Shown in pieces: positions 12 to 24,818 of a stretch of DNA of 40,288 bases. Origin of the DNA: Verrucomicrobiales bacterium (GTDB lineage: Bacteria; Verrucomicrobiota; Verrucomicrobiia; Verrucomicrobiales; DEV007). Numbering within the stretch: the first letter of the stretch is position 1; each line of letters starts with the position of its first letter. The position numbers were made by a program, and so were the translations under genes. The notes under the pieces were generated by a model that did no database searches, was not told the origin of the DNA, and was given only the letters and a program-made list of their open reading frames with translations. The stretch spans positions 1 to 40,288 of the forward strand of contig JAKSBG010000070.1 of the NCBI GenBank assembly GCA_022361255.1, written 5' to 3'.

Positions 12-3000
12 ATGAAACGATTTAACGCGCTTCTCCTCCTTTCCTGCCTGTCGCTCTCCCCCGCCCTCGGAGAAAACAAATCCGACGCCCTGCCTGAAAC
101 GGTTAGCTACTACGAGCACATCCGCCCCGTCTTCCAGGCCAAGTGCCAGGGCTGCCACCAACCTGCCAAAGCGAAATCGGAATACATCATGACCGATGTG
201 GCCTCGCTCATCAAAGGCGGCGAGACGGACAAAGCCATCATTCCCGGCAAACCGGACGAAAGTTATCTACTCGAACTGGTCGTAGCGCACGAAGGGGAAA
301 AACACCCCGAGATGCCTCCCAAGGAGGAACCTCTCACTGACTACGAAGTGAAGCTGGTGAAAAAGTGGGTCACGCAGGGGGCGAAAGATGACACCCCGGA
401 AAATGCGCAGCAGAAATACACGATGGAGAACCCGCCCGAATACGCGGTTCCCCCACTCGTCACTTCGATGGACTACTCCCCCGACGGAAAACTGCTCGCG
501 GTAGCCGGTTTCCACGAAGTGCTTGTCCACAAAGCGGACGGTTCCGGACTCGTCACCCGTCTCGTGGGGCTGTCCGAACGCATCGAATCCGTTGCCTTTT
601 CCCCAGACGGCACCCAACTTCTCGTTGCCGGCGGCCTGCCCGGCCGGATGGGAGAAATTCAGATCTGGGACCTCGCGAAAAAGGAGCTGAAACTCTCAAA
701 GATCGTCGGATTCGACACCGCCTACGGCGCGAGCTGGTCGCCGGACGGCAAGCACGTCGCCTACGGCCTCCCCGACAATACGGTTCGCGGGATCAAAGCA
801 TCGAACGGCGAGCAAATCCTTTTCATGGGATCGCACAATGACTGGGTTCTCGACACGGTCTGGTCGATCAAGGGCGATCACCTTGTCTCGGTGGGCCGCG
901 ACATGACATCGAAACTCACCAAAGTCGAGACCGAGCGCTTCATTGACAACATCACCTCCATCACTCCAGGAGCGTTGAAAGGCGGAGTCAATACCGTGAC
1001 GCGTCACCCGAAGCAGGATCACGTCCTCGTGGGTGGTTCTGACGGGGTTCCCCAGATCTATCGCATGTACCGCGAAACGGTGAGGAAGATCGGCGACAAC
1101 GCGAACCTCATCCGAAAGTATCCGGCAATGAAAGGCCGGATCTGGGACGCTGATTTCGTCCCCGACGGGAAAACCTTCGCCGCCGTTTCCAGCCTCGACG
1201 GCAAAGGCGAGATCAGCCTCTACAAATCGGAATATGACGCGACGATCACCCCCGAGCTGAAAAAGCTTTTTGAAACCGTCCGCCGCTCGACTAACGCCGC
1301 CGAGAACAAGGACGACAAAATCGAAGAATTCCAGACCCGGGGAGCCGAGCGCATTGCGAAAGTCGATGTGGGAACCGCACTCTATTCTGTCGCTTTTTCC
1401 TCTGACGGAAAAACCATCGCTGCGGCCGGTGCGGACGGATCAATCCGCCTTCTCAACGCCGCTGACCTGAAGGAGAAACTCGCCTTTGCCCCGATCAGCA
1501 TCGACAAGGAGCGCGCCATCGTGAAAGCCGATCCGAAAGCAACAGACCGCGCAAAAGGAAAAATCGCCGATCACAAAGAATCCCTTCCCAAAGGTCGCGA
1601 GGTTACCGCGATCGAAGTCAGCCCGAAGACCATCGACATCGATTCCCCGAACGCCTACCGCCAGCTTCTCGTGACCGCGAAGCTCAACACCGGCGAGACG
1701 GCTGACATCACTCGCATGGTGAAATACCAGCTCGACCAGCCGCTCGCCTCCATCTCAAAAACCGGCGTTTTCCGTCCGACCAAAGACGGAGCAGCCACGC
1801 TCGCTATCAGCTACGAAAATGTGAAAGACGACGTGCCCGTGAAAATCGGGAATCAGGCCGCAGATGTTCATCTCAATTTCGTTCAGGACGTCAATCCCGT
1901 TATCACCCGCCTCGGCTGCAACATGGGAACCTGCCACGGGGCCAAGGACGGCAAAGGCGGATTCAAACTCAGTCTGCGCGGCTACGATCCCCTCTACGAC
2001 GTTCGCGGTTTCTCCGATGATCACTCGGCCCGACGCGTCAATTTTGCCTCGCCCGATGATTCACTCATGCTCCTCAAGGCGACCGGCGCTGTCCCGCATG
2101 AGGCAGGAGTCGTTACAGAAATGGATTCCCGCTACTACCACACGATTCGCCAGTGGATCGCGAGTGGAGCCAAACTCGATACCAACGTTGCGAGAGCGGC
2201 CTCGATCGAACTTTTCCCGAAGAATCCCGTGATTCAAAACATCGGTGCGATGCAGCAGCTGCGGATTGTCGCCCGCTACACGGACGGAAAAACGCGCGAC
2301 GTCACTCTCGAATCGTTCATTGAATCCGGAAACACGGAAGTCGCTGAGCACGACGACTTCGGCCTTCTCAAAACGATTCGTCGCGGGGAGGCCCCCATTC
2401 TTGCCCGTTATGAAGGTGCCTACGCCGCCACTACGCTGACGGTCATGGGCGACCGCGAAGGATTTACCTGGCAGCAACCCGAAGCCTGGGGTGAAATTGA
2501 CAAGCTCGTCGCTTCCAAATGGCAACGCATGAAGCTCAAACCGAGCGAACTCTGCAGCGACGAAGAATTTATCCGCCGCGTCTACCTCGACTTAACAGGG
2601 TTACCTCCCGCATCTGACAGGGTTAAGTCATTCATCAAAGAGGGTTCACCGACGAAGGAGAAACGGGCCAAACTCGTGGATGAACTGATCGGTTCCCCGG
2701 AGTTTGTCGATCACTGGACCAACAAATGGTCTGACATGCTTCAGGTGAATTCCAAGTTCCTCGGCGGCGAAGGCGCCAAGCTCTTTCGTGAGTGGATCAA
2801 AACCGAGATCGCGGCAAACACTCCCTACGACAAATTCGTTTACAAAATCCTCACCGCGACCGGCTCAAACAAAGAAAATCCCGCCGCGAGCTACTACAAG
2901 ATTCTCCGTGATCCTGACATGATCATGGAGAACACGACGCACCTTTTCCTCGCGACCCGGTTCAACTGCAACAAGTGCCACGATCACCCCTTCGAGCGCT

Positions 3001-5150
3001 GGACGCAGGATCAATACTACGAAACGGCCGCCTACTTTGCGCAGATCGATTTGAAGCGGGACGGAAAAAATGCCCCGAAACAGAACATCGGCGGAACCGC
3101 AGTCGAAGGAGCCAAGCCTCTCTACGAAATCGTCGGTGACAAGGCCGAAGGCGATATCAAACACGACCGCACCGGCGAGGTGCAGCCTCCGGCTTTTCCC
3201 TACGAGGCAACGATTGAAAAAGCGGCCTTTGCCGATCCCAAAGCTCCCACCCGCCGGGAGGAACTTGCCGGGTGGATCACGAGTCCGGACAACCAGTATT
3301 TTGCTTCCAGCTACGCCAACCGGATCTGGGGATACCTGTTGGGAACCGGAATCATCGAACCGCTCGACGACATTCGCGCCGGCAATCCTCCAACGAATCC
3401 GCAGCTGCTCAACTACCTGACAAAGCAGTTCGTGCAGAGCGAATTCAACGTGCAGGAGCTGATGCGTGAAATCTGCAACTCGCGAACCTATCAACTCTCT
3501 ATTCGGACCAATGAGTGGAATGAGAAAGACGAGACGAATTTCTCCCACGCCAAGGCCCGCCGCCTTCCTGCCGAGACGCTCTACGATGCGGTCCACTTTG
3601 TCACCGGAGTGAAACCAAACATTCCCGGAGCCGGAGCCGGAACCCGCGCGAGTCAGCTCCCCGACGCCAAGCTCGACCTCAAGAGCGGCTTCCTCGCCAA
3701 CCTCGGTCGCCCCGCCCGCGAGAGCGCCTGTGAGTGCGAGCGATCAGACGATCTGCAAATGAGTGCTGTGATGGCGTTTCTGTCAGGGCCTGCCATCGCT
3801 GATGCGATCGGCTCAGACAGCAGTGACCTTCCCGCCCTCGTCGCAAGCCAGCCCGACGACCGCAAACTGGTTGAGGAAATCTATTACCGTGTCCTTGCCC
3901 GCGCACCTCGCAAAGCCGAAATTGATGCCGCCATCGCGAGCATGAACGAGATCGAGAGCGATCACCAGAGCCTTCTCGCCAAAGCCTCCCGGGCCGAGGC
4001 AGACTGGGTCAAAAAGCGCAGCGAACTGGAGATCAAACGCCACCAGGCAATCAACAAGGCGAACGCTGACATCACAGCCTACACGCCCGAATACAACAAA
4101 AAGAAGGCGGAGGCCGAGGCCGCGCAGAAGCAGCGCATCGCCGACGCCGCAAAAGCCGAAGAGGCAAAGCGCGCCGAGCTTCCCCAATTAATCAATGCGT
4201 TCGCCGCCGGCGTAAAAGCCGACCAGCTCTGGACCCGTTGGCACAAACTCGACGTCGCCAGCGTGACCTCTTCGGACAAGGTGAAAGTTGAGATCACTCC
4301 TGAAGGATCGGTTCGATACACCGGAGGATACAAGAAAGGCAACATCGACTATCTCGTTACCGGAAAAACGACGGCGCAGAACATCACCGGAATCATGATT
4401 GAGGCACTGCCAAACGCGGCAAATGCGGCCTACGGTCCGGGATTGAACCCCAACGGAAACTTCGTCATTACCGAAGTGCAGACCAGGTGGAACACGCTAG
4501 CCGATCCGAAAAAATCGAATCCGCTGAAAATTACCGGAGCCAAAGCGACCTTCAATCAAAACGGCTTCGATGTGAAGAATGTCTTCAACGGAAACGTCGC
4601 CCGGAACGACAAAGGGTGGGCCCTTTCGGGAACAAACTACCAGATCCCCCATCGTGCCGTCCTCAAATTTGAAAAGCCCGTTGCCGGTGATGCCAAAGGA
4701 GCAAATCTCACGGTCGGTGTCCTGTGCCGCTACAGCCAGGGAGACTATCCGATTTCCCATTTCCGTATCTGGTATACCACCGACGAAAATCCGATGAACT
4801 TTGGATTGCCCGCACAGGTGGCATCCGCCGTCGCTTCGGCCCCCGCCAAACGCAGCGAAGCCGAGCAGAAAGCGCTCGCCGCCTACGTGGAGAAAAACAA
4901 TGAGGATCTCGCAAAACTCGTCGCCAACCATCTTGCGCAGAAGCGCCCTCTCCCTGCAGACCCGAAGATGACCGGACTGAAAGCTGCCCTGACAAAAGCA
5001 GAAACGCCCGTTTCCGAACCGCAGCCGCTGGTCCAGCTCCGCAGTGACACGAACTACTCCATCGAACAGGCCGCGAACCGGAGACTCACCGCTGCCCAGG
5101 ATCTCGTCTGGGCGCTTGTAAACAGCCCGTCATTTTTGTTTAATCGCTAA
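12..5150 (+). CDS. Secreted WD40 / PSCyt1 / DUF1549 / DUF1553 cytochrome-like giant protein
   Basis: The protein has 1712 aa with a clear Sec signal peptide (about 1-20, cleaved after ALG). Domains in order: a PSCyt1-type haem site CQGCH (C45, C48, H49); a WD40-like propeller at about 155-483 with repeated SPDG strands; a bacterial Ig-like (BIG2-type) domain at about 531-603; a CNMGTCH motif (C636, C641, H642); DUF1549 with CNKCH at C986-H990; and DUF1553 from about 1080. DUF1553 is interrupted at about 1308-1690 by a charged Ala/Lys/Glu coiled coil and a beta-rich module. Its usual ending ([17 protein letters not shown]) returns at the very C-terminus. Proteins of this family are abundant in PVC bacteria and pair with DUF1501 proteins, as here. 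Their reaction is not established. A role in extracytoplasmic polysaccharide binding or oxidation is inference. The ATG at 12 is supported by the signal peptide. Confidence 0.93.
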
Positions 5151-13323: not shown

Positions 13324-15420
13324 ATGCGGATTCAACCCGTCATTCTCGTAGCGCCTTTCCTGGCCGGATTCACCGGCTGGATGCTTTCGGGTTCACCGAT
13401 TCCAATGGCATTTGCCACAGTGCTTCTACTCGTCGCGCTCACAGGAAAGCCTTTTCGGAAATCAGAGTCGATTCAGCAGTTTCTCTTTTTCCTTTTTCCC
13501 GCTCTATCTCTGGTTTCTGTCTTGATTCAAATCCGGCTTTTTCAGCGTGGAGAAGCACTCGCAACCAACGCCGATCTTCCCGGCTGGTTCATCGCGGGAG
13601 CAGGAATCACGGCAACAGCAGCGATGCTTTCCCTGTTGCGGGTTACCAGATGCGGGGATGCCGTCTACTCTCTGGCACTGGCAGGAGGCCTCCTCGTTTT
13701 TTCCTCCGCCTTTCCGGTCGAACTTTATGATTTCAGCGAATGGCAGGTCTATCCGCTGGCAGCGCTTCCGGTCGTTCTCCTTCTGATCACCGGGCTGTCC
13801 GACCGGAAAATGAGAACATTTCCCCTCCTCGCTTCCGGGATTGCCGGTAGCCTCGCTCTGTCCGGTATCGGAATATTCTTCGCCAATACCACCGACAGAC
13901 TGGATGAGTGGATTCACCGCGACGAGACCAAACTCACCGACTACGACCGGGGCGGTGCGCCACAACTCGACGACGGCCGGGGAGGCCCCGACGGCAGCTC
14001 CCGCCGACTTCCGCGCGAAGTAAAACTCACTTTCGACGACCGGGTTCGTATCTATCTCCAACCGCAATCGCCGGAACTGTTCCGCGACCAAACGAGACGC
14101 CCCCTCTACTTGCGAACCTCGACTGTCGCGGTCTTCGAAAGCGACGAAGTGATCGCTCCGGTTCGCAGTGCACGCTGGCTCTACGATGACGACGACGGGG
14201 AAACAGATTTCACAATCTCTCTCCGCGCGACTCAACCCTATTCGGAAAAAAACGAACCCTCTTTGGTATCCGACTATACCCTCTTCATTGAGCGGGAGGC
14301 CGCCTACGCACTCCCGTTGCTACACGGCACGTCCCGGGTCTCCGCCAGCGCCCTTTACGAGTTCGCCGACAACTGGTATCAGCTCGCTCCGGATGAGAAA
14401 TTTGATCGCCTCCGCTATACCGCTTCGGTGCCGTCAAAACTCCCCGCCGGACTCCCGGGAGGAAGCATCAACTCTCTCCGCCAACCCGGTGCACCGGGAA
14501 TCTATCTCAACCTTCCGCCATCTCCTCTCGCGGCCCGCGTCACCCATTTTTGCGAAGCCCTTCCCGACTATATGACACTGGAGGGGCTTCGAGCCTACCT
14601 GGAAGATCACGCGACCTATTCTCTTGATTTCGAAACTCCGGAAGATATGAGTCCAGTCGAAAATCTTCTCTTCGGGAACAAAGAGGGGCACTGCGAACTC
14701 TACGCTGCTGCGGCTGTGATGATGCTCCGAAGTCTCCGCATTCCCAGCCGGCTCGCCTATGGATACAGCGGAGGAATCGCCGATCGAAATCAGCAGGTGA
14801 TCGCGTTTCGTGACCGCGATTTTCATGCCTGGGCGGAAGTGCTTACCCCTGAAAATACCTGGGCTGTCTTCGACGCTACTCCGGCATCCGACGAGGCAGC
14901 CTCCCGCAACCCCGTTGCCTCCCCTGTCCCGACTGTCGATTTCGCAGGGTATGAGAATTTCTCCACCTCCGAGCTGGATCCCCATGAAAGGGGAAACCCT
15001 CTCGCCAACTGGTTCTTCTCCGCGACCTATTTTCTCTCCCGGCATTTTCTCCCGTTGACCGGAGGCGGAATCACTCTTGCGATCGTGTTTCTTCTTCTGA
15101 AAAAGAGAAAAAAGAACGAAATCGACCTGCATTCGCGTGGGCAATCGACTAGATCAAGCAGAAACCAGACCTCCGCGCTCATGCAGGCTCTCGTATCCTG
15201 CGGGAATCTTCTCGGAACCGAGAAGGAAGCAGGGCAAACCTGGAGGGAATTCCTGGAGACACTCGGTAAGGAATCGGAGATACCGCAGGTATTTGAGGAA
15301 ATTGTTTCCTATCACTATCGTATCTGCTACGCCCTCGATACTCCTGACCCTGACACAGAGACAAACTTGCAAAACCGCCTTACGGAGTGGAAAGATTGCC
15401 AAACCGACTCCGTACGATAA
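13324..15420 (+). CDS. Membrane-bound transglutaminase-like protein
   Basis: The protein has 698 aa counted from the ATG at 13324, which lies 5 bp after the DUF58 stop and begins directly with the first membrane helix. Earlier in-frame starts would overlap DUF58. Several transmembrane helices occupy about 1-185. A periplasmic region follows with the transglutaminase core. The catalytic triad is visible as C457 in EGHCELYAAA, H501 in RDFHAWAEV and D517 in WAVFDATP. A further helix sits near residue 580, and a cytoplasmic tail ends the protein. It forms the standard MoxR-DUF58-transglutaminase set. It may crosslink or process envelope proteins, but substrates are unknown. Confidence 0.92.
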   Translation: MRIQPVILVAPFLAGFTGWMLSGSPIPMAFATVLLLVALTGKPFRKSESIQQFLFFLFPALSLVSVLIQIRLFQRGEALATNADLPGWFIAGAGITATAAMLSLLRVTRCGDAVYSLALAGGLLVFSSAFPVELYDFSEWQVYPLAALPVVLLLITGLSDRKMRTFPLLASGIAGSLALSGIGIFFANTTDRLDEWIHRDETKLTDYDRGGAPQLDDGRGGPDGSSRRLPREVKLTFDDRVRIYLQPQSPELFRDQTRRPLYLRTSTVAVFESDEVIAPVRSARWLYDDDDGETDFTISLRATQPYSEKNEPSLVSDYTLFIEREAAYALPLLHGTSRVSASALYEFADNWYQLAPDEKFDRLRYTASVPSKLPAGLPGGSINSLRQPGAPGIYLNLPPSPLAARVTHFCEALPDYMTLEGLRAYLEDHATYSLDFETPEDMSPVENLLFGNKEGHCELYAAAAVMMLRSLRIPSRLAYGYSGGIADRNQQVIAFRDRDFHAWAEVLTPENTWAVFDATPASDEAASRNPVASPVPTVDFAGYENFSTSELDPHERGNPLANWFFSATYFLSRHFLPLTGGGITLAIVFLLLKKRKKNEIDLHSRGQSTRSSRNQTSALMQALVSCGNLLGTEKEAGQTWREFLETLGKESEIPQVFEEIVSYHYRICYALDTPDPDTETNLQNRLTEWKDCQTDSVR

Positions 15421-20265: not shown

Positions 20266-21761
20266 TTCGGAATTTTGTTCAGAGTGTAATAGGCATTGGG
20301 GAAATCGAGAGCCTTTCCGTCCGCTGACTTGAGTCCGGCCGTGCGAAGCTCATGAACAAAAAGAGGCCGGCAGCCTTTTACCTTCAGCCTGATCCTTTTC
20401 CCACCTTCCTGTATTTCGATACCGTTAATTTCATGTTGCTTTGTCAGGATCTCCTCCCCTCCGTAGGCCGATGAATACTCGTAGGTGTAGCTCATCATTG
20501 AAAAAGCCTCCGGCGTCACGGTGTCCGGATCCACAGGTTCGGTAAAGACCAGCTCAAATCCGTCCGGTTTTGCCCGCATTTCCTGCATCGCAAAAGGTGT
20601 AATACCCGAATAGCTGATCCGCTGCAAACCGTAGGAACGGTTTCCCAGCGATGACCAGCCGCGATTGGTCATTCCCACAAAAAGTTGCCCGTCCGGAGAA
20701 AAGCACAGCCTCACCACTGCTGCGGGGAATCCCTGCATGAATCGAAAACAAGCTCCCTGATATTCCCCGCCCACTTTCTCCAGGAACACCCGATTGATCG
20801 AGGAATTGGTAAACTCGCCAACAAGCAACTGCCCGTCGAAAGGTCCAAATTTCCCCTTCTGATCGATCAATTCGATATCTGTCGCACTGCGGTCCATTTT
20901 GTTATAGGGCAGCCAGACGGCCGGGGGAACAAACTCGGGAGACTCGGCGAGGGCGTCCGGATAGGGCTGATTCGGTTTCGGCTTCGCCTTCATTTTGAAA
21001 GGCGCATCGGGGAGTTTCAAACTCTCGAGCGACTCCTGGTTTCCGTAGAACACTCCGGGACGGAGGTGGTAAACGGGAGTCGCCGGAATCCAGGTTCCCT
21101 GCTGATCGGTGAAGAACATATCTCCGACGAGGTTTCGACCGAGTCCGGAGGGTGAACGCATCCCGAGCGATTTCGGCACAAAGCGCCCGTCATCACCAAT
21201 GATTCCACCCCAGCCCCGCCAGCCGATCCGGTTGTCGGCAAGATTACCCATTCCGAGATTCAAGGTCACCCAAAGCTGATCCTTCCCGTCCCGCTCCGGA
21301 CCGTAGGCATAGGCATGATAGTTTCCGGACACGTTCCAGCCGTCACACTCTGTTAGGTAGGCATCTGCTACCCCGTCTCCGTCAGAGTCTCTGAGACGCG
21401 TAATCTCGGCACGCTGCGACACTAACAGATCCCCCTTATCGAGTGTCACCCCGAGCGGTTCGTGCAGACCCGACGCAAACAGTTGGTAGGAAATCTCTGC
21501 GGGATCATTCGCGAGCGGATTCTCCACCATCCAGACTTCCCCTTTTCGAATGGCCACTGCCAGTTTGCCATCAACCCATTCGATTCCACTGACCTCCATC
21601 GTGATCCCGTCACCCGGTTTCCATTCCTTCGACCGAGAGTCATTCGGCGAACTGGCGGACATCAGTTCAAAAACCTCGTAGGAGTTCTTTTTCTCCTCCG
21701 CACAAAGTGAAAAAGCCAGCGAGGCAATTCCCCCGATCACCATGTTTCTATGTAATCTCAT
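20262..21761 (-). CDS. Sorbosone/glucose-dehydrogenase-like beta-propeller, secreted
   Basis: The 499-aa protein has a signal peptide (about 1-21) and a six-bladed-propeller-like body: ITMEVSGIEWVDGKLAVAIRKGEVWMV, GLHEPLGVTLDKGDLLVSQ, and a calcium-type loop DSDGDGVADAY. The C-terminal part (about 375-499) looks Ig-like and contains FELVFTEPVDPDTVTPEAFSM. No CxxCH is present, so it is not a haem protein itself. It overlaps the pentahaem cytochrome gene upstream (ATGA 21758-21761), which would be a natural electron acceptor if it oxidises a sugar. A cofactor such as PQQ cannot be confirmed from sequence. Confidence 0.85.
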   Translation of the reverse strand: MRLHRNMVIGGIASLAFSLCAEEKKNSYEVFELMSASSPNDSRSKEWKPGDGITMEVSGIEWVDGKLAVAIRKGEVWMVENPLANDPAEISYQLFASGLHEPLGVTLDKGDLLVSQRAEITRLRDSDGDGVADAYLTECDGWNVSGNYHAYAYGPERDGKDQLWVTLNLGMGNLADNRIGWRGWGGIIGDDGRFVPKSLGMRSPSGLGRNLVGDMFFTDQQGTWIPATPVYHLRPGVFYGNQESLESLKLPDAPFKMKAKPKPNQPYPDALAESPEFVPPAVWLPYNKMDRSATDIELIDQKGKFGPFDGQLLVGEFTNSSINRVFLEKVGGEYQGACFRFMQGFPAAVVRLCFSPDGQLFVGMTNRGWSSLGNRSYGLQRISYSGITPFAMQEMRAKPDGFELVFTEPVDPDTVTPEAFSMMSYTYEYSSAYGGEEILTKQHEINGIEIQEGGKRIRLKVKGCRPLFVHELRTAGLKSADGKALDFPNAYYTLNKIPK

Positions 21762-23890
21762 TTCCAGAAATAGGTAAATGTTAGTCTATCGTCTGCTTCT
21801 TCGACGATTGTCTCGACACCTTCCGGGTGACTCACGTCAGGAGCCCCGCCATCGCTCCAGCTGATCATACGGATCATTTTTCCGTCAGTGACGGAAAACT
21901 TCTCCCTGATCTCACGGCCCTCTTTGGAAACAATGAAAGTCGGATTGCCATCGCCATCCAGCTCATAGCCCCGGAAACGCCCTGCTTGTTCTGCTTCGGG
22001 GAACGGATACACATCCTCACTCAACGGATCGCCGAACGGAGCAGCACGTGTAAACCAGGTGTCGTAGGCGTCGAAGAATGCCCCCCTCCAGATCAGCGCA
22101 GGCTTTCCCTTTTGCCCGTCAAAGGCAAGATGGATGTCTCCCGGAAAACCAACGAGAATGGCCTTCGTACCGCTCTTGTTGAAAAATGTTCTCTGGATCA
22201 TCGGACGATCTTGCGGCACCAACTCAAACTGCCCGCCACTCCGGTCCGGAAAACCTTCGGGAATCCCTTCCCCGTCTTCGATAAAATTCCAGATCGCACC
22301 AATCTGCCGCTCCGTATCCCCACCCAGCACATCTGGCAGAGTCGATTTTCCACCCGGCCAGAGCGGAGGCATCAGTGTGCCCGGGCGGTACTCCGCTGGA
22401 TTCAACAAGTAGCTCCGGAACCAGGTAGGCTGAAGTCGTTTGTCGAGATTGCTGAGATCCACTGCCGGGATTCCGAGCGACTTCTGCTCTCCCCAGTTGT
22501 GACAAGTGATGCAGTTTACGCCACCTTGAATGCCGAGCAATTTTCGACCCACGTCCCTGTCATCCGCCCGATCTTCGAGAGGCACCGGATCATCCGGTCT
22601 GTCCAATTCCTCCAGCCACTCTGTCAAACCGGCGGCATGCGCGGCATAGGCCGGCATCTGCGTTTTGACATAGGGTCGCACCCTGTTTTCCGCCTTCCCT
22701 TCCAGAACTCCCTTCAACCATTCGGGTTTCAGTTTGTGCCCGATTCCAGTCAAGGGAGGGGGAAGACGCCCCGAATCACCGAGCCCCTCGTTCCCCACGA
22801 AAAACGGATTTGCCGCAGTCGTCGGGCCACCAACCGAATCGCGATCATGACAGGCATAACAGTTCAGCGCGGCAAGGGTAAGGTGGGCTCCATCCCCTTC
22901 AAAGCCGTCTTTCTTTTGCAGGAAAAGCAGCAACGACTCGCGTTGCAGGTCTGTCAGATTGTAGAAAGGCAGGCCCTCGACCTTTTCCTTCGAAAGGCAA
23001 TGGTGAGCACCGTCTCCTCCAATCTCCCTCACCCCGTCAGGCTTGAGACCGGGGATTTCGTGGCAGGCCGCACAGTTCATTTTCTGCACGAGGGCTTTTC
23101 CCCGGGCTGCTTCCTCCACCGTCGACTCCGGCCAGTCATCCACCCCGGATACTTCCCTGGGGTCCGAGGCCTGAATGTCGAGAAGGTGCGCCGCGACATC
23201 TATCGCCTCCTGAGGCTCGAGTTGGATGTGAGGCATACGACTATCCGGCCGATACTTCGATGGCGACGAAAGAAAGAGGTTCAGTGCCTCCAGGCTCGTT
23301 TTTGCCTGCAGGTCGGGATGAGCGATCGCAAGTGAAGCATCGAAATCATTCCCGCTCCCGTGTGGCCCCCGGTAGTCAGCAGTGGGAGCATGACAGGCAA
23401 CGCATCCCTTCTCATGATAGATCGCACTGCCCCGCTCTGCGTTGGCATGCCGCCCCGCGCGGAATTTGATTCCCTTTCCGATCGTTCCAAGAAACGCAAG
23501 GATGTCCCCCAGATTTTCGTCGGACATGCCGTGCAGCATGGAAGGCATAGTCGAACCCTTCCGACCGTTCTCCGGATTGCGGAGAAACTCACGCAACCAT
23601 TCCCGTTCCACACGCTGGCTCAGATCAACGAGCTTCGGACCTTTCCGCTCCACCTTCACCGGGGAATCTCCATGACAGTTCGCACAACCGAGCTCCGAAA
23701 ACAGAATTGCCCCGCCTTCGACAGACGCCTCAGCACTGTGAAACCGTTCAAAACCGATCACATGAGGTTCCGCCTGCAATGACGTCACTAGCAAAAACAG
23801 AATCAAACCCTGTTGAGTCAACCACCCAACAGGGTTGCGTCGATGAACCAACCCTGTTGGCTTCTCCCGTTTACACTTGCTATCTTTCAT
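21758..23890 (-). CDS. Secreted pentahaem cytochrome c
   Basis: The 710-aa protein has five CxxCH haem sites: C69-H73 (CANCH), C163-H167 (CVACH), C273-H277 (CAACH), C344-H348 (CYACH) and C460-H464 (CITCH), each with a downstream Met-containing PxxMP-like segment. The signal peptide core is LILFLLVTSLQA, ending near residue 40. The n-region is unusually long, and residues 11-29 are encoded by a palindromic repeat (23806-23860). The C-terminal 200 aa are a beta-rich domain without haem sites. The ATG at 23890 lies 16 nt after the epimerase stop. In-frame TTG codons after the palindrome are alternative starts. It probably accepts electrons from the adjacent propeller protein in the periplasm. 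Confidence 0.9.
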   Translation of the reverse strand: MKDSKCKREKPTGLVHRRNPVGWLTQQGLILFLLVTSLQAEPHVIGFERFHSAEASVEGGAILFSELGCANCHGDSPVKVERKGPKLVDLSQRVEREWLREFLRNPENGRKGSTMPSMLHGMSDENLGDILAFLGTIGKGIKFRAGRHANAERGSAIYHEKGCVACHAPTADYRGPHGSGNDFDASLAIAHPDLQAKTSLEALNLFLSSPSKYRPDSRMPHIQLEPQEAIDVAAHLLDIQASDPREVSGVDDWPESTVEEAARGKALVQKMNCAACHEIPGLKPDGVREIGGDGAHHCLSKEKVEGLPFYNLTDLQRESLLLFLQKKDGFEGDGAHLTLAALNCYACHDRDSVGGPTTAANPFFVGNEGLGDSGRLPPPLTGIGHKLKPEWLKGVLEGKAENRVRPYVKTQMPAYAAHAAGLTEWLEELDRPDDPVPLEDRADDRDVGRKLLGIQGGVNCITCHNWGEQKSLGIPAVDLSNLDKRLQPTWFRSYLLNPAEYRPGTLMPPLWPGGKSTLPDVLGGDTERQIGAIWNFIEDGEGIPEGFPDRSGGQFELVPQDRPMIQRTFFNKSGTKAILVGFPGDIHLAFDGQKGKPALIWRGAFFDAYDTWFTRAAPFGDPLSEDVYPFPEAEQAGRFRGYELDGDGNPTFIVSKEGREIREKFSVTDGKMIRMISWSDGGAPDVSHPEGVETIVEEADDRLTFTYFWK
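23806..23860. repeat. Palindromic element within the cytochrome c coding start
   Basis: CCAACAGGGTTG at 23826-23837 and CAACCCTGTTGG at 23849-23860 are exact 12-bp inverted arms around an 11-nt loop. A third copy of the arm core, AACCCTGTTG, lies at 23806-23815. In the minus-strand reading frame the element encodes PTGLVHRRNPVGWLTQQGL, a string unlike a normal signal-peptide n-region. It resembles REP-like palindromes that insert into or near coding sequence. Dispersal elsewhere in the genome cannot be seen from here. Confidence 0.65.
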
Positions 23891-23906: not shown

Positions 23907-24818
23907 TTACACCTGCCCCAGACACTCGGTCAAATACGCACGGGATTCGTTGATCACTCCGGTGATTTCACCGGCAGTCGGACGCATCGGGATTCCACGC
24001 GGAACGGGATGCATAAAGATCTCGGACAGTCCTTCGAAACCGATCTCTTTCAACGCGGCGACAAGGGGAACGTAGTCGAGAGTGCCGAAGCCTGGCATCT
24101 GCTTCACTTCGTCCTCCTTTGTCATCTTCTTCTTCGAGGACGGATGAAATTCCTGAAAATAGAAGAACGGCAACTGCTCTTTGCCGATTTCGCGAATCAG
24201 TTTCGGCATTTCTTCAACCGCATCATAAAGATGATGCGGGGCAAAAGCGATGCCGACATTTTTTGACGGGTTGAGCTCGACAAAATAGCGGATTGAATCC
24301 GGCGAGGAAAGCATGGCGTTTTTGTGATTTTCGATCGCCATCGTGATACCGAGCTCCTCCGCGAGTTCGTAATGTGGTTTCAGTTTTTCAAAGAATGCCT
24401 GCACCTGTTTTTTCGCTTCGGCTCCGACAGGATCCTTTTCTCCCATGCTCCCGGAACCGCAGACAGTCATGTGTCCGCCGTTCTTTTTCACCCACCTCAT
24501 TTCTTCATCCTGTTTGAACGGGCCGAGAGGGTAACAGGTCGAGATCGACATCCTCGTTTTGTGCTTTGTCAGGAGAGATTGAAACGCCTCGTCACCCATC
24601 TCCTCAATCTGCTCCCGGTGAGTCGCGTGAACCTTTCTCCAGATATCGACTGAACCGGATCCCGATTCATTCGCCGCTGCAAGAACCTGCTCCAGTGGAA
24701 GGTCACCATACATGGCAGACGAAAGAACATAGTTCAGCGAAAACTCCTCCGCCGTCCTCCCTGACAAGGGCACAAAAGCGGCCGCCGCCGCGCCTTTAAC
24801 AAAATCGCGTCTCTTCAT
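23907..24818 (-). CDS. Tat-exported sugar phosphate isomerase/epimerase-like TIM barrel
   Basis: The 303-aa protein starts with a twin-arginine signal (MKRRDFVKGAAAAAFVPLSG). The body fits the xylose-isomerase-like TIM-barrel family (AP_endonuc_2). Family features include LGITMAIENHKNAM, FAPHHLYDAVEE and FFYFQEFHPSS, with acidic and His metal-ligand candidates at strand ends. It probably isomerises or epimerises a free sugar or keto-sugar outside the cytoplasm. The gene sits second in the six-gene run, 38 bp after the DJ-1-like gene. A 6-bp palindrome (GGAATT/AATTCC, 24825-24840) lies in that gap. Confidence 0.87.
   Translation of the reverse strand: MKRRDFVKGAAAAAFVPLSGRTAEEFSLNYVLSSAMYGDLPLEQVLAAANESGSGSVDIWRKVHATHREQIEEMGDEAFQSLLTKHKTRMSISTCYPLGPFKQDEEMRWVKKNGGHMTVCGSGSMGEKDPVGAEAKKQVQAFFEKLKPHYELAEELGITMAIENHKNAMLSSPDSIRYFVELNPSKNVGIAFAPHHLYDAVEEMPKLIREIGKEQLPFFYFQEFHPSSKKKMTKEDEVKQMPGFGTLDYVPLVAALKEIGFEGLSEIFMHPVPRGIPMRPTAGEITGVINESRAYLTECLGQV

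Follow-up and report, generated by a model that had tools for sequence, protein, structure and literature searches.

The array at the start of a cytochrome c gene

The window studied here is the whole stretch of 40,288 nucleotides from a Verrucomicrobiales bacterium (GenBank assembly GCA_022361255.1, contig JAKSBG010000070.1). Its minus strand carries a cytochrome c-domain gene (21758-23890; Cytochrom_C, E 2e-29) and, upstream of it in the same direction, a gene (23907-24818, minus strand) that looks sugar-isomerase-like by eye. The short junction 3′ of the latter's stop codon, which falls in the start region of the cytochrome reading frame, holds a 53-bp array at 23806-23858. The array has no strand as a whole and reads AACCCTGTT-N13-AACAGGGTT-N13-AACCCTGTT, where AACAGGGTT is AACCCTGTT on the opposite strand; it shows 0 mismatches to AACMSKGTT-N13-AACMSKGTT-N13-AACMSKGTT. 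The boxes lie at 23806-23814 (+), 23828-23836 (−), and 23850-23858 (+), at a step of 22 bp.

A sequence-only reading of this DNA had pointed to a perfect 12-bp palindrome encoded in frame at this place. Its arms, CCAACAGGGTTG (23826-23837) and CAACCCTGTTGG (23849-23860), are separated by a loop of 11 nt as described, and the region is indeed open in a 710-aa reading frame (21758-23890, minus strand), where it encodes PTGLVHRRNPVGWLTQQGL. The third arm also reported there is present from 23806 as an extra copy, AACCCTGTTG, but is shorter than the other two. The palindrome exceeds chance (2 matches in the whole window against 0.15 expected, with 1 mismatch permitted), and the two-box pattern has 6 matches in the window against 0.29 expected. 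Nonetheless, the palindrome is not the repeated unit: what repeats is a 9-bp box, AAC-(CCT or AGG)-GTT, set three times (23806, 23828, and 23850) at a strict 22-bp step. The palindrome at 23826-23860 corresponds to boxes 2 and 3, and it forms a hairpin because these adjacent boxes happen to be oppositely directed, whereas many sister arrays are unidirectional. A plasmid search with the cytochrome as query gave no match, nor did tRNA and Rfam scans of the window.

The window holds further arrays. One, with all three boxes in the minus direction, spans 2594-2646 (boxes at 2594, 2616, and 2638) and lies within the PSCyt2 (DUF1549) domain of a plus-strand gene at 12-5150 that encodes WD40-type repeats and PSCyt1, PSCyt2, and PSD1 domains. 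A probable but weak two-box array, AACCCTCTT-N13-TACCCTCTT with a low score of 12, is found at 14255-14285 in a transglutaminase-domain gene (13324-15420).

Anatomy and copy number of the arrays

Searched genome-wide, the exact motif of the palindrome is a single copy in the 5.85-Mb genome, not one of the dozens that a mobile element had led the sequence-only reading to anticipate. Its idea of a dispersed family nevertheless holds, with hundreds of members, once the looser three-box array is taken as the repeated thing: allowing ≤3 mismatches, the pattern occurs at 338 places in this genome (the own genome hereafter) against 0 for a reversed control pattern, and blastn with the 101-bp region returns 68 matches there. 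The step is equally distinctive. Across 664 kb of the own genome, the count of three-box arrays (≤3 mismatches) was 64 at 22 bp and zero at steps of 17-21 and 23-27 bp, and a position-weight scan gave 122 scoring positions at 22 bp, a number that also counts neighboring shadows, against a mean of 1.2 at ten other spacings. A first census of 55 arrays comprised 52 of three boxes, 2 of two, and 1 of four, with a step of 22 bp in 106 of 109 cases and of 21 bp in the remaining 3. A signal at offset 44 had suggested arrays of more than three boxes, which the offset profile, showing only three, ruled out.

The box is palindromic in its outer AAC...GTT, and its direction is visible solely from the 3-nt core (CCT or AGG). 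The core-oriented loose consensus is A-Y-Y-Y-AACCCTGTT-G-R-R-T, in which the 9-mer holds nearly all of the information; the fourth letter outside the box ends is A in 72% and T in 75%. This makes the extended box near-palindromic (A-N3-AAC-NNN-GTT-N3-T). The flank profile shows no conservation past ~4 nt outside the outer boxes, and there is therefore no terminal repeat or duplicated target. All eight orientation patterns are found among 66 own arrays (−−+ 13, −−− 12, +++ 11, +−+ 9, −++ 9, −+− 7, +−− 3, and ++− 2). Box orientation is thus nearly free, and spacing is fixed. With centers 22 bp apart, or two helical turns, the boxes would lie on one face of the helix.

A consensus-free pairing of 9-mers in the own genome places AACAGGGTT at the top for offset 22, although this pairing is noisy, with other tandem repeats at several offsets, and is weaker evidence than the step profile; it did not recover the box in G007 and did so only weakly in G012. 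In a genome of another genus (G048), 68 two-box arrays (≤2 mismatches) stand against 0-6 at eight control spacings.

Position relative to genes and proteins

Genes were called with a home-made gene finder on 883 kb, 8.0% of which is non-coding. Sixteen of the 76 arrays sit inside called genes; the intergenic ones fall in tandem (38), convergent (10), and divergent (6) gaps, and 6 are at contig edges. Divergent gaps hold arrays in both genomes compared (6/54 intergenic arrays in the own genome and 11/53 in G048). The neighboring stop codon lies at a median of 18 nt, and most members of the family follow closely on the end of a gene. Arrays can also be read through as protein, as had been proposed. 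The strings encoded by in-gene arrays are QQG, QTG, NPV, DPV, and TLL; the nine host proteins searched include HemW-like, RsmB-like, MutL-like, and PSCyt-type proteins and a chromate transporter. Synonymous codon choice supports a signal at the DNA level: the first box of the array in the PSCyt2 gene is spelled by the codons ACA GGG TTR, whose joint frequency in the own genome is ~0.004 (0.144 x 0.226 x 0.122). For annotators, the warning is that NPVG..QQG, QQGS..STG, and similar peptides of these genomes reflect a DNA-level constraint visible in proteins and are not inserted elements.

Origin of the arrays

Orthologues of two array-bearing genes bear on how arrays arise. Across the array at 2594-2646, all 23 congeneric orthologues (L256-L278) align without a gap. 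The first two boxes are kept with ≤2 mismatches each in 10 of these 23 (the alignment being read by eye), and the third in 0/23, the own gene having KEG where they have ADK/ADD-type residues. The same search brought up six more loci, all of them distant paralogues, in which a gap of 2 residues lies close by. The second case is a HemW-like gene whose array (positions 4594-4646 of locus L194) has three perfect boxes in the HemN_C domain. Here, 26 of 27 orthologues are gap-free at the array; the exception, G004, is gapped and has two perfect boxes in a shifted position. Counting the variants AACCCTCTT and AAGAGGGTT as matches, boxes 1 and 2 are kept (≤2 mismatches) in 19 of the 26 gap-free orthologues, and box 3 is perfect in G002 and present as AAGAGGGTT in G022 and G045. 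Two of the boxes are therefore older, and the third is an addition by substitution. Judged from these alignments of two arrays, arrays in genes are built in place by point substitution, not inserted.

The proposal of a mobile insertion is thus contradicted at both in-gene arrays tested (23/23 and 26/27 orthologues gap-free). REP elements are described as hairpins of 20-40 bp with a GTAG or CGTC tag at one end (PMC3733652). The arrays have no such tag, no terminal repeat, and no duplicated target, and copy number does not appear to follow transposases of the RAYT type: Y1_Tnp has 3 matches in the own genome and 0 in both G009 (135 arrays, 69% complete) and G002 (71 arrays, 75% complete). MITE or transposon ends with target immunity, raised by the even spacing described below, were rejected as well, as the tested arrays form by substitution. 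Separately, G038 and G015 have 40 and 33 Y1_Tnp matches, respectively, which bear no relation to array number and represent a separate transposase expansion.

The cytochrome junction itself was compared by collecting orthologues in a genus search and reading the sequence upstream of a conserved motif; the classification sets aside G036 (L157) and some loci (L158 and partial orthologues). Differing two-box arrays or remnants of them occur in G007, G043, G008, G045, G015, G004, and partly G001, and G006 (L149) has a box-like fragment only. No boxes are found at the junction in G044 (L148), G022 (L151), G005 (L153), G012 (L154), G037 (L155), G010 (L161), G014 (L162), G011 (L163), G042 (L164), G021 (L165), G020 (L166), and G009 (L168). 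The sequence-only reading had looked for the palindrome to be absent from this site in orthologues; that several carry differing two-box arrays here comes near to what it had itself named as evidence against insertion. The peptides NPVW and NPVR recur at the junction because of the boxes. The start codon ATG overlaps the upstream stop codon in G008, G045, and G015, from which the array is probably translated in the n-region of the signal peptide, as had been suggested. At this junction alone an insertion may have taken place, because the length of the n-region varies among orthologues; G022 has a long n-region and no boxes.

Range, dialects, and orientation rules

We surveyed the two-box pattern across 288 genomes of the order, with controls giving 0-1. 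Counts above 0 were obtained in 30 of the 33 genomes of the own genus, ranging from 1 to 295, in all four genomes of genus g12 (463, 145, 280, and 303), and in both of genus g16 (69 and 445), which belong to the same family. Counts are 0-2 in the remaining genera of the family and 0-3 in other families. Two-box relatives, which show box variants, are thus confined to a single family, where three genera have them. Some congeners are array-poor at 94-95% completeness (G040 with 0, G037 with 2, and G042 with 1). Of 70 matching stretches, 60 are from Verrucomicrobia(les) MAGs; the 10 from other phyla proved on inspection to be ordinary tandem repeats with other cores or repeats, and a wide taxonomic spread was rejected.

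Both box variants and box number vary between genomes of the family, and so does the orientation rule: 32/41 perfect arrays run all one way in G009 (JAHDCN), 18/19 are inverted pairs in G166, and G048 and the own genome are mixed. G037 has only two pattern matches (C50, at 240558 and 261066; L367 and L368). Both are inverted pairs with perfect boxes, and a gene of cation-efflux type (by eye) lies no more than ~0.5 kb from either one.

Viral contigs yielded 0 stretches with three boxes. As for viral carriers of two boxes, 5 of 6 stretches have non-matching cores or look chance-like and were dismissed. One viral contig (L364, viral_contigs) reads AACACTGTT-N13-AACCCTGTT with matching spacer letters, possibly phage or mislabeled host DNA.

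Inverted pairs behind rpsI

One position shared between congeners is behind rpsI, which was matched in 31 genomes and examined at 30 loci (L379-L408). In 22/30 congeners, a two-box array in inverted order (0-1 mismatch) lies 29-55 nt 3′ of the gene and is followed by T-rich sequence; the other 8 have unrelated sequence at that place, several of these being hairpins. The arrays fold as a 14-bp stem (−21.2 kcal/mol for the own copy). By position and predicted fold, inverted pairs occupy the terminator position of rpsI, a terminator-like use, and the 22 hairpins with boxes against the 8 unrelated sequences form a clean natural replacement series. The array-poor genomes G021, G011, and G014 have their few arrays at shared core-gene places, in all three behind rpsI; G021 and G014 also share two other places, one 3′ of an S18-like gene and one flanked by a tilS-like and a typA-like gene (names by eye).

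Even spacing

Arrays also keep their distance from each other. On complete or near-complete contigs, the 76 arrays of the own genome leave 44 gaps, only one of which is below 4 kb (the smallest, 3238 bp). Uniform placement would give 15.9 such gaps (0/5000 simulations as low) and placement weighted to intergenic DNA 17.1 (0/3000 as low), and the gap CV is 0.45 against 0.84-0.89. In G048, 58 gaps separate the 68 two-box arrays counted over 578 kb; 1 of them is below 2 kb (75 bp) against 13.0 expected (0/2000). For G166, with 12 gaps, the result is no more than suggestive (p 0.0085 at 2 kb, whereas at 3 kb the gaps do not differ). Typical distances are mostly 5-14 kb, repulsion extends over about 3-5 kb in two genera, and the density is ~1 array per 12 kb, as measured on array-enriched sequence. 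One contig of the own genome (G000:C169; L181, L182, and L237) is array-free for 44 kb, until 44276, at ordinary G+C, and is possibly an acquired region.

Comparison with known systems

Near-palindromic sites across a chromosome are familiar from matS, a near-palindromic protein site with a 3-nt centre. The arrays, with their putative protein, resemble matS/SlmA/Noc/parS-type sites in this respect. They differ in being multi-box, phased, and present on nearly all sampled contigs, in their asymmetric conserved core (CCT/AGG), and in their rapid turnover between congeners. Repressor operators that can be read in either orientation, such as omega heptads and Arc or MetJ boxes, are asymmetric boxes bound side by side in direct or inverted order, as the boxes here are arranged; those operators control few promoters, whereas here there are hundreds of evenly spaced sites.

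Like REP (GTAG/CGTC) and Rickettsia palindromic elements, the arrays are dispersed short palindromes behind genes and sometimes in reading frames. Unlike these families as described in PMC3733652, they lack a tag tetranucleotide, are not insertions where in-gene arrays were aligned, have boxes in any orientation, and show no apparent RAYT link.

The arrays also bear a likeness to the uptake sequences DUS (Neisseriaceae) and USS (Pasteurellaceae). In passages of PMC3630211 and PMC1939737, these sequences are said to come in dialects, to occupy permissive places in the core genome, to form inverted pairs at terminators, and to be evenly spaced and subject to molecular drive. Set against that description, the arrays share a short over-represented motif, freedom of orientation, in-place evolution, even spacing, and permissive core-gene positions, as well as apparent species dialects and inverted pairs at terminator positions (PMC1939737, PMC3630211). 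Uptake sequences have been argued to be less even than compaction sites ought to be (PMC1939737); in contrast, the arrays here are very even. They also differ from the single 9-12-bp core of DUS/USS in having two or three boxes in strict 22-bp phase, and their density is far below that quoted for USS/DUS in PMC1939737. Finally, literature searches found no report of such a signal in the host phylum.

Possible functions

We tentatively propose, by analogy and well aware that it may prove wrong, that the arrays are an uptake-signal-like self-DNA mark. They would be a genome-wide DNA recognition signal of 9-bp boxes (AAC-CCT-GTT) with weak symmetric flanks and centers 22 bp apart, two boxes per array being ancestral and three the state of the own genome. 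Arrays arise by point substitution wherever the sequence is permissive, mostly behind genes and sometimes within them, and a putative sequence-specific protein would read the boxes side by side, each in either orientation. As a mark of self-DNA of the DUS/USS kind, an array would cause the fragment bearing it to be preferentially taken up and recombined; biased replacement (molecular drive) would then raise array number, and a second array within one fragment length would add little gain, which would yield even spacing. Such a mark would also give rise to species dialects, and inverted pairs could be reused as terminators. Taken together, free orientation, origin in place, evenness of spacing, permissive positions, apparent dialects, and terminator pairs match what PMC1939737 and PMC3630211 say of DUS, which establishes likeness, not membership. 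ComEC is present in the own genome and in 40/41 good family genomes, with or without arrays, and is uninformative since it is equally frequent in array-free genera. Array-free genus g14 of the same family lacks ComEC in 9/10 genomes, although most of the family keeps it. Literature searches found no report of competence in this group.

In our reading the uptake-like mark is the first choice, and a chromosome-organizing site is a close second. A dimeric protein that binds every 5-14 kb, each time to a tandem set of two or three 22-bp operators, could shape, segregate, or mark the nucleoid, in the manner of matS/SlmA/Noc sites but genome-wide. As tandem near-palindromes of 22 bp, two or three to an array, the boxes resemble operators for an intracellular dimer more than an uptake signal. 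The even spacing with its repulsion over ~3-5 kb in two genera is explained as well or better than by uptake, and the helix-phased, near-palindromic extended boxes and the rpsI position conserved across congeners fit too. However, a swing from hundreds to almost none among congeners (0 in G040, 2 in G037, and 1 in G042) would be odd for such a site unless another box is used, and we regard this role as possible but the less probable of the two.

That inverted pairs simply end transcripts or bind a global regulator, the arrays being a terminator or operator family that multiplied, would account for the stop codon at a median of 18 nt, the 14-bp stems and T-rich sequence behind rpsI, and the inverted pairs that predominate in G166 and remain in G021; the pairs of G166 (18/19) fit an operator role too. 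Yet 23/66 arrays of the own genome are unidirectional (+++ or −−−) and unable to form a long hairpin, 16/76 are intragenic, divergent gaps are also occupied, and even spacing is left unexplained, which makes this role unlikely. Least probable is the REP- or MITE-like mobile palindrome of the sequence-only reading, perhaps with target immunity accounting for the spacing. It can draw on the hundreds of scattered copies, their intergenic preference, and the large copy-number differences among congeners; against it stand the gap-free orthologues at the two tested in-gene arrays, box orientations that vary freely among copies, the lack of a GTAG/CGTC tag, TIR, or TSD, and Y1_Tnp counts that do not appear to follow copy number.

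Implications

We consider it fairly probable that the arrays represent a new class of genome-wide self-DNA signal, found in a verrucomicrobial family without cultured members and built from several boxes in phase with the helix. Between lineages, the number of boxes (two to three) and the orientations allowed (inverted only, all one way, or free) have changed; biased DNA exchange or chromosome folding would keep the even spacing of 5-14 kb, and a putative protein would read the signal. Literature searches found no report of this array, and the matches listed for four 10-mer sequence strings were unrelated by title. To our knowledge, genome signals of the uptake type have been described only in a few proteobacterial groups. 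If the proposal is true, the phased and evenly spaced multi-box signal of Verrucomicrobiales would be a genome mark of a new kind. It would come with natural replicates, as dozens of congeners differ in whether arrays are many, few, or absent, in having two or three boxes, and in their orientation rules. Two old questions would become testable on them: what makes such signals evenly spaced, and how changes in a signal and in its reader go together.
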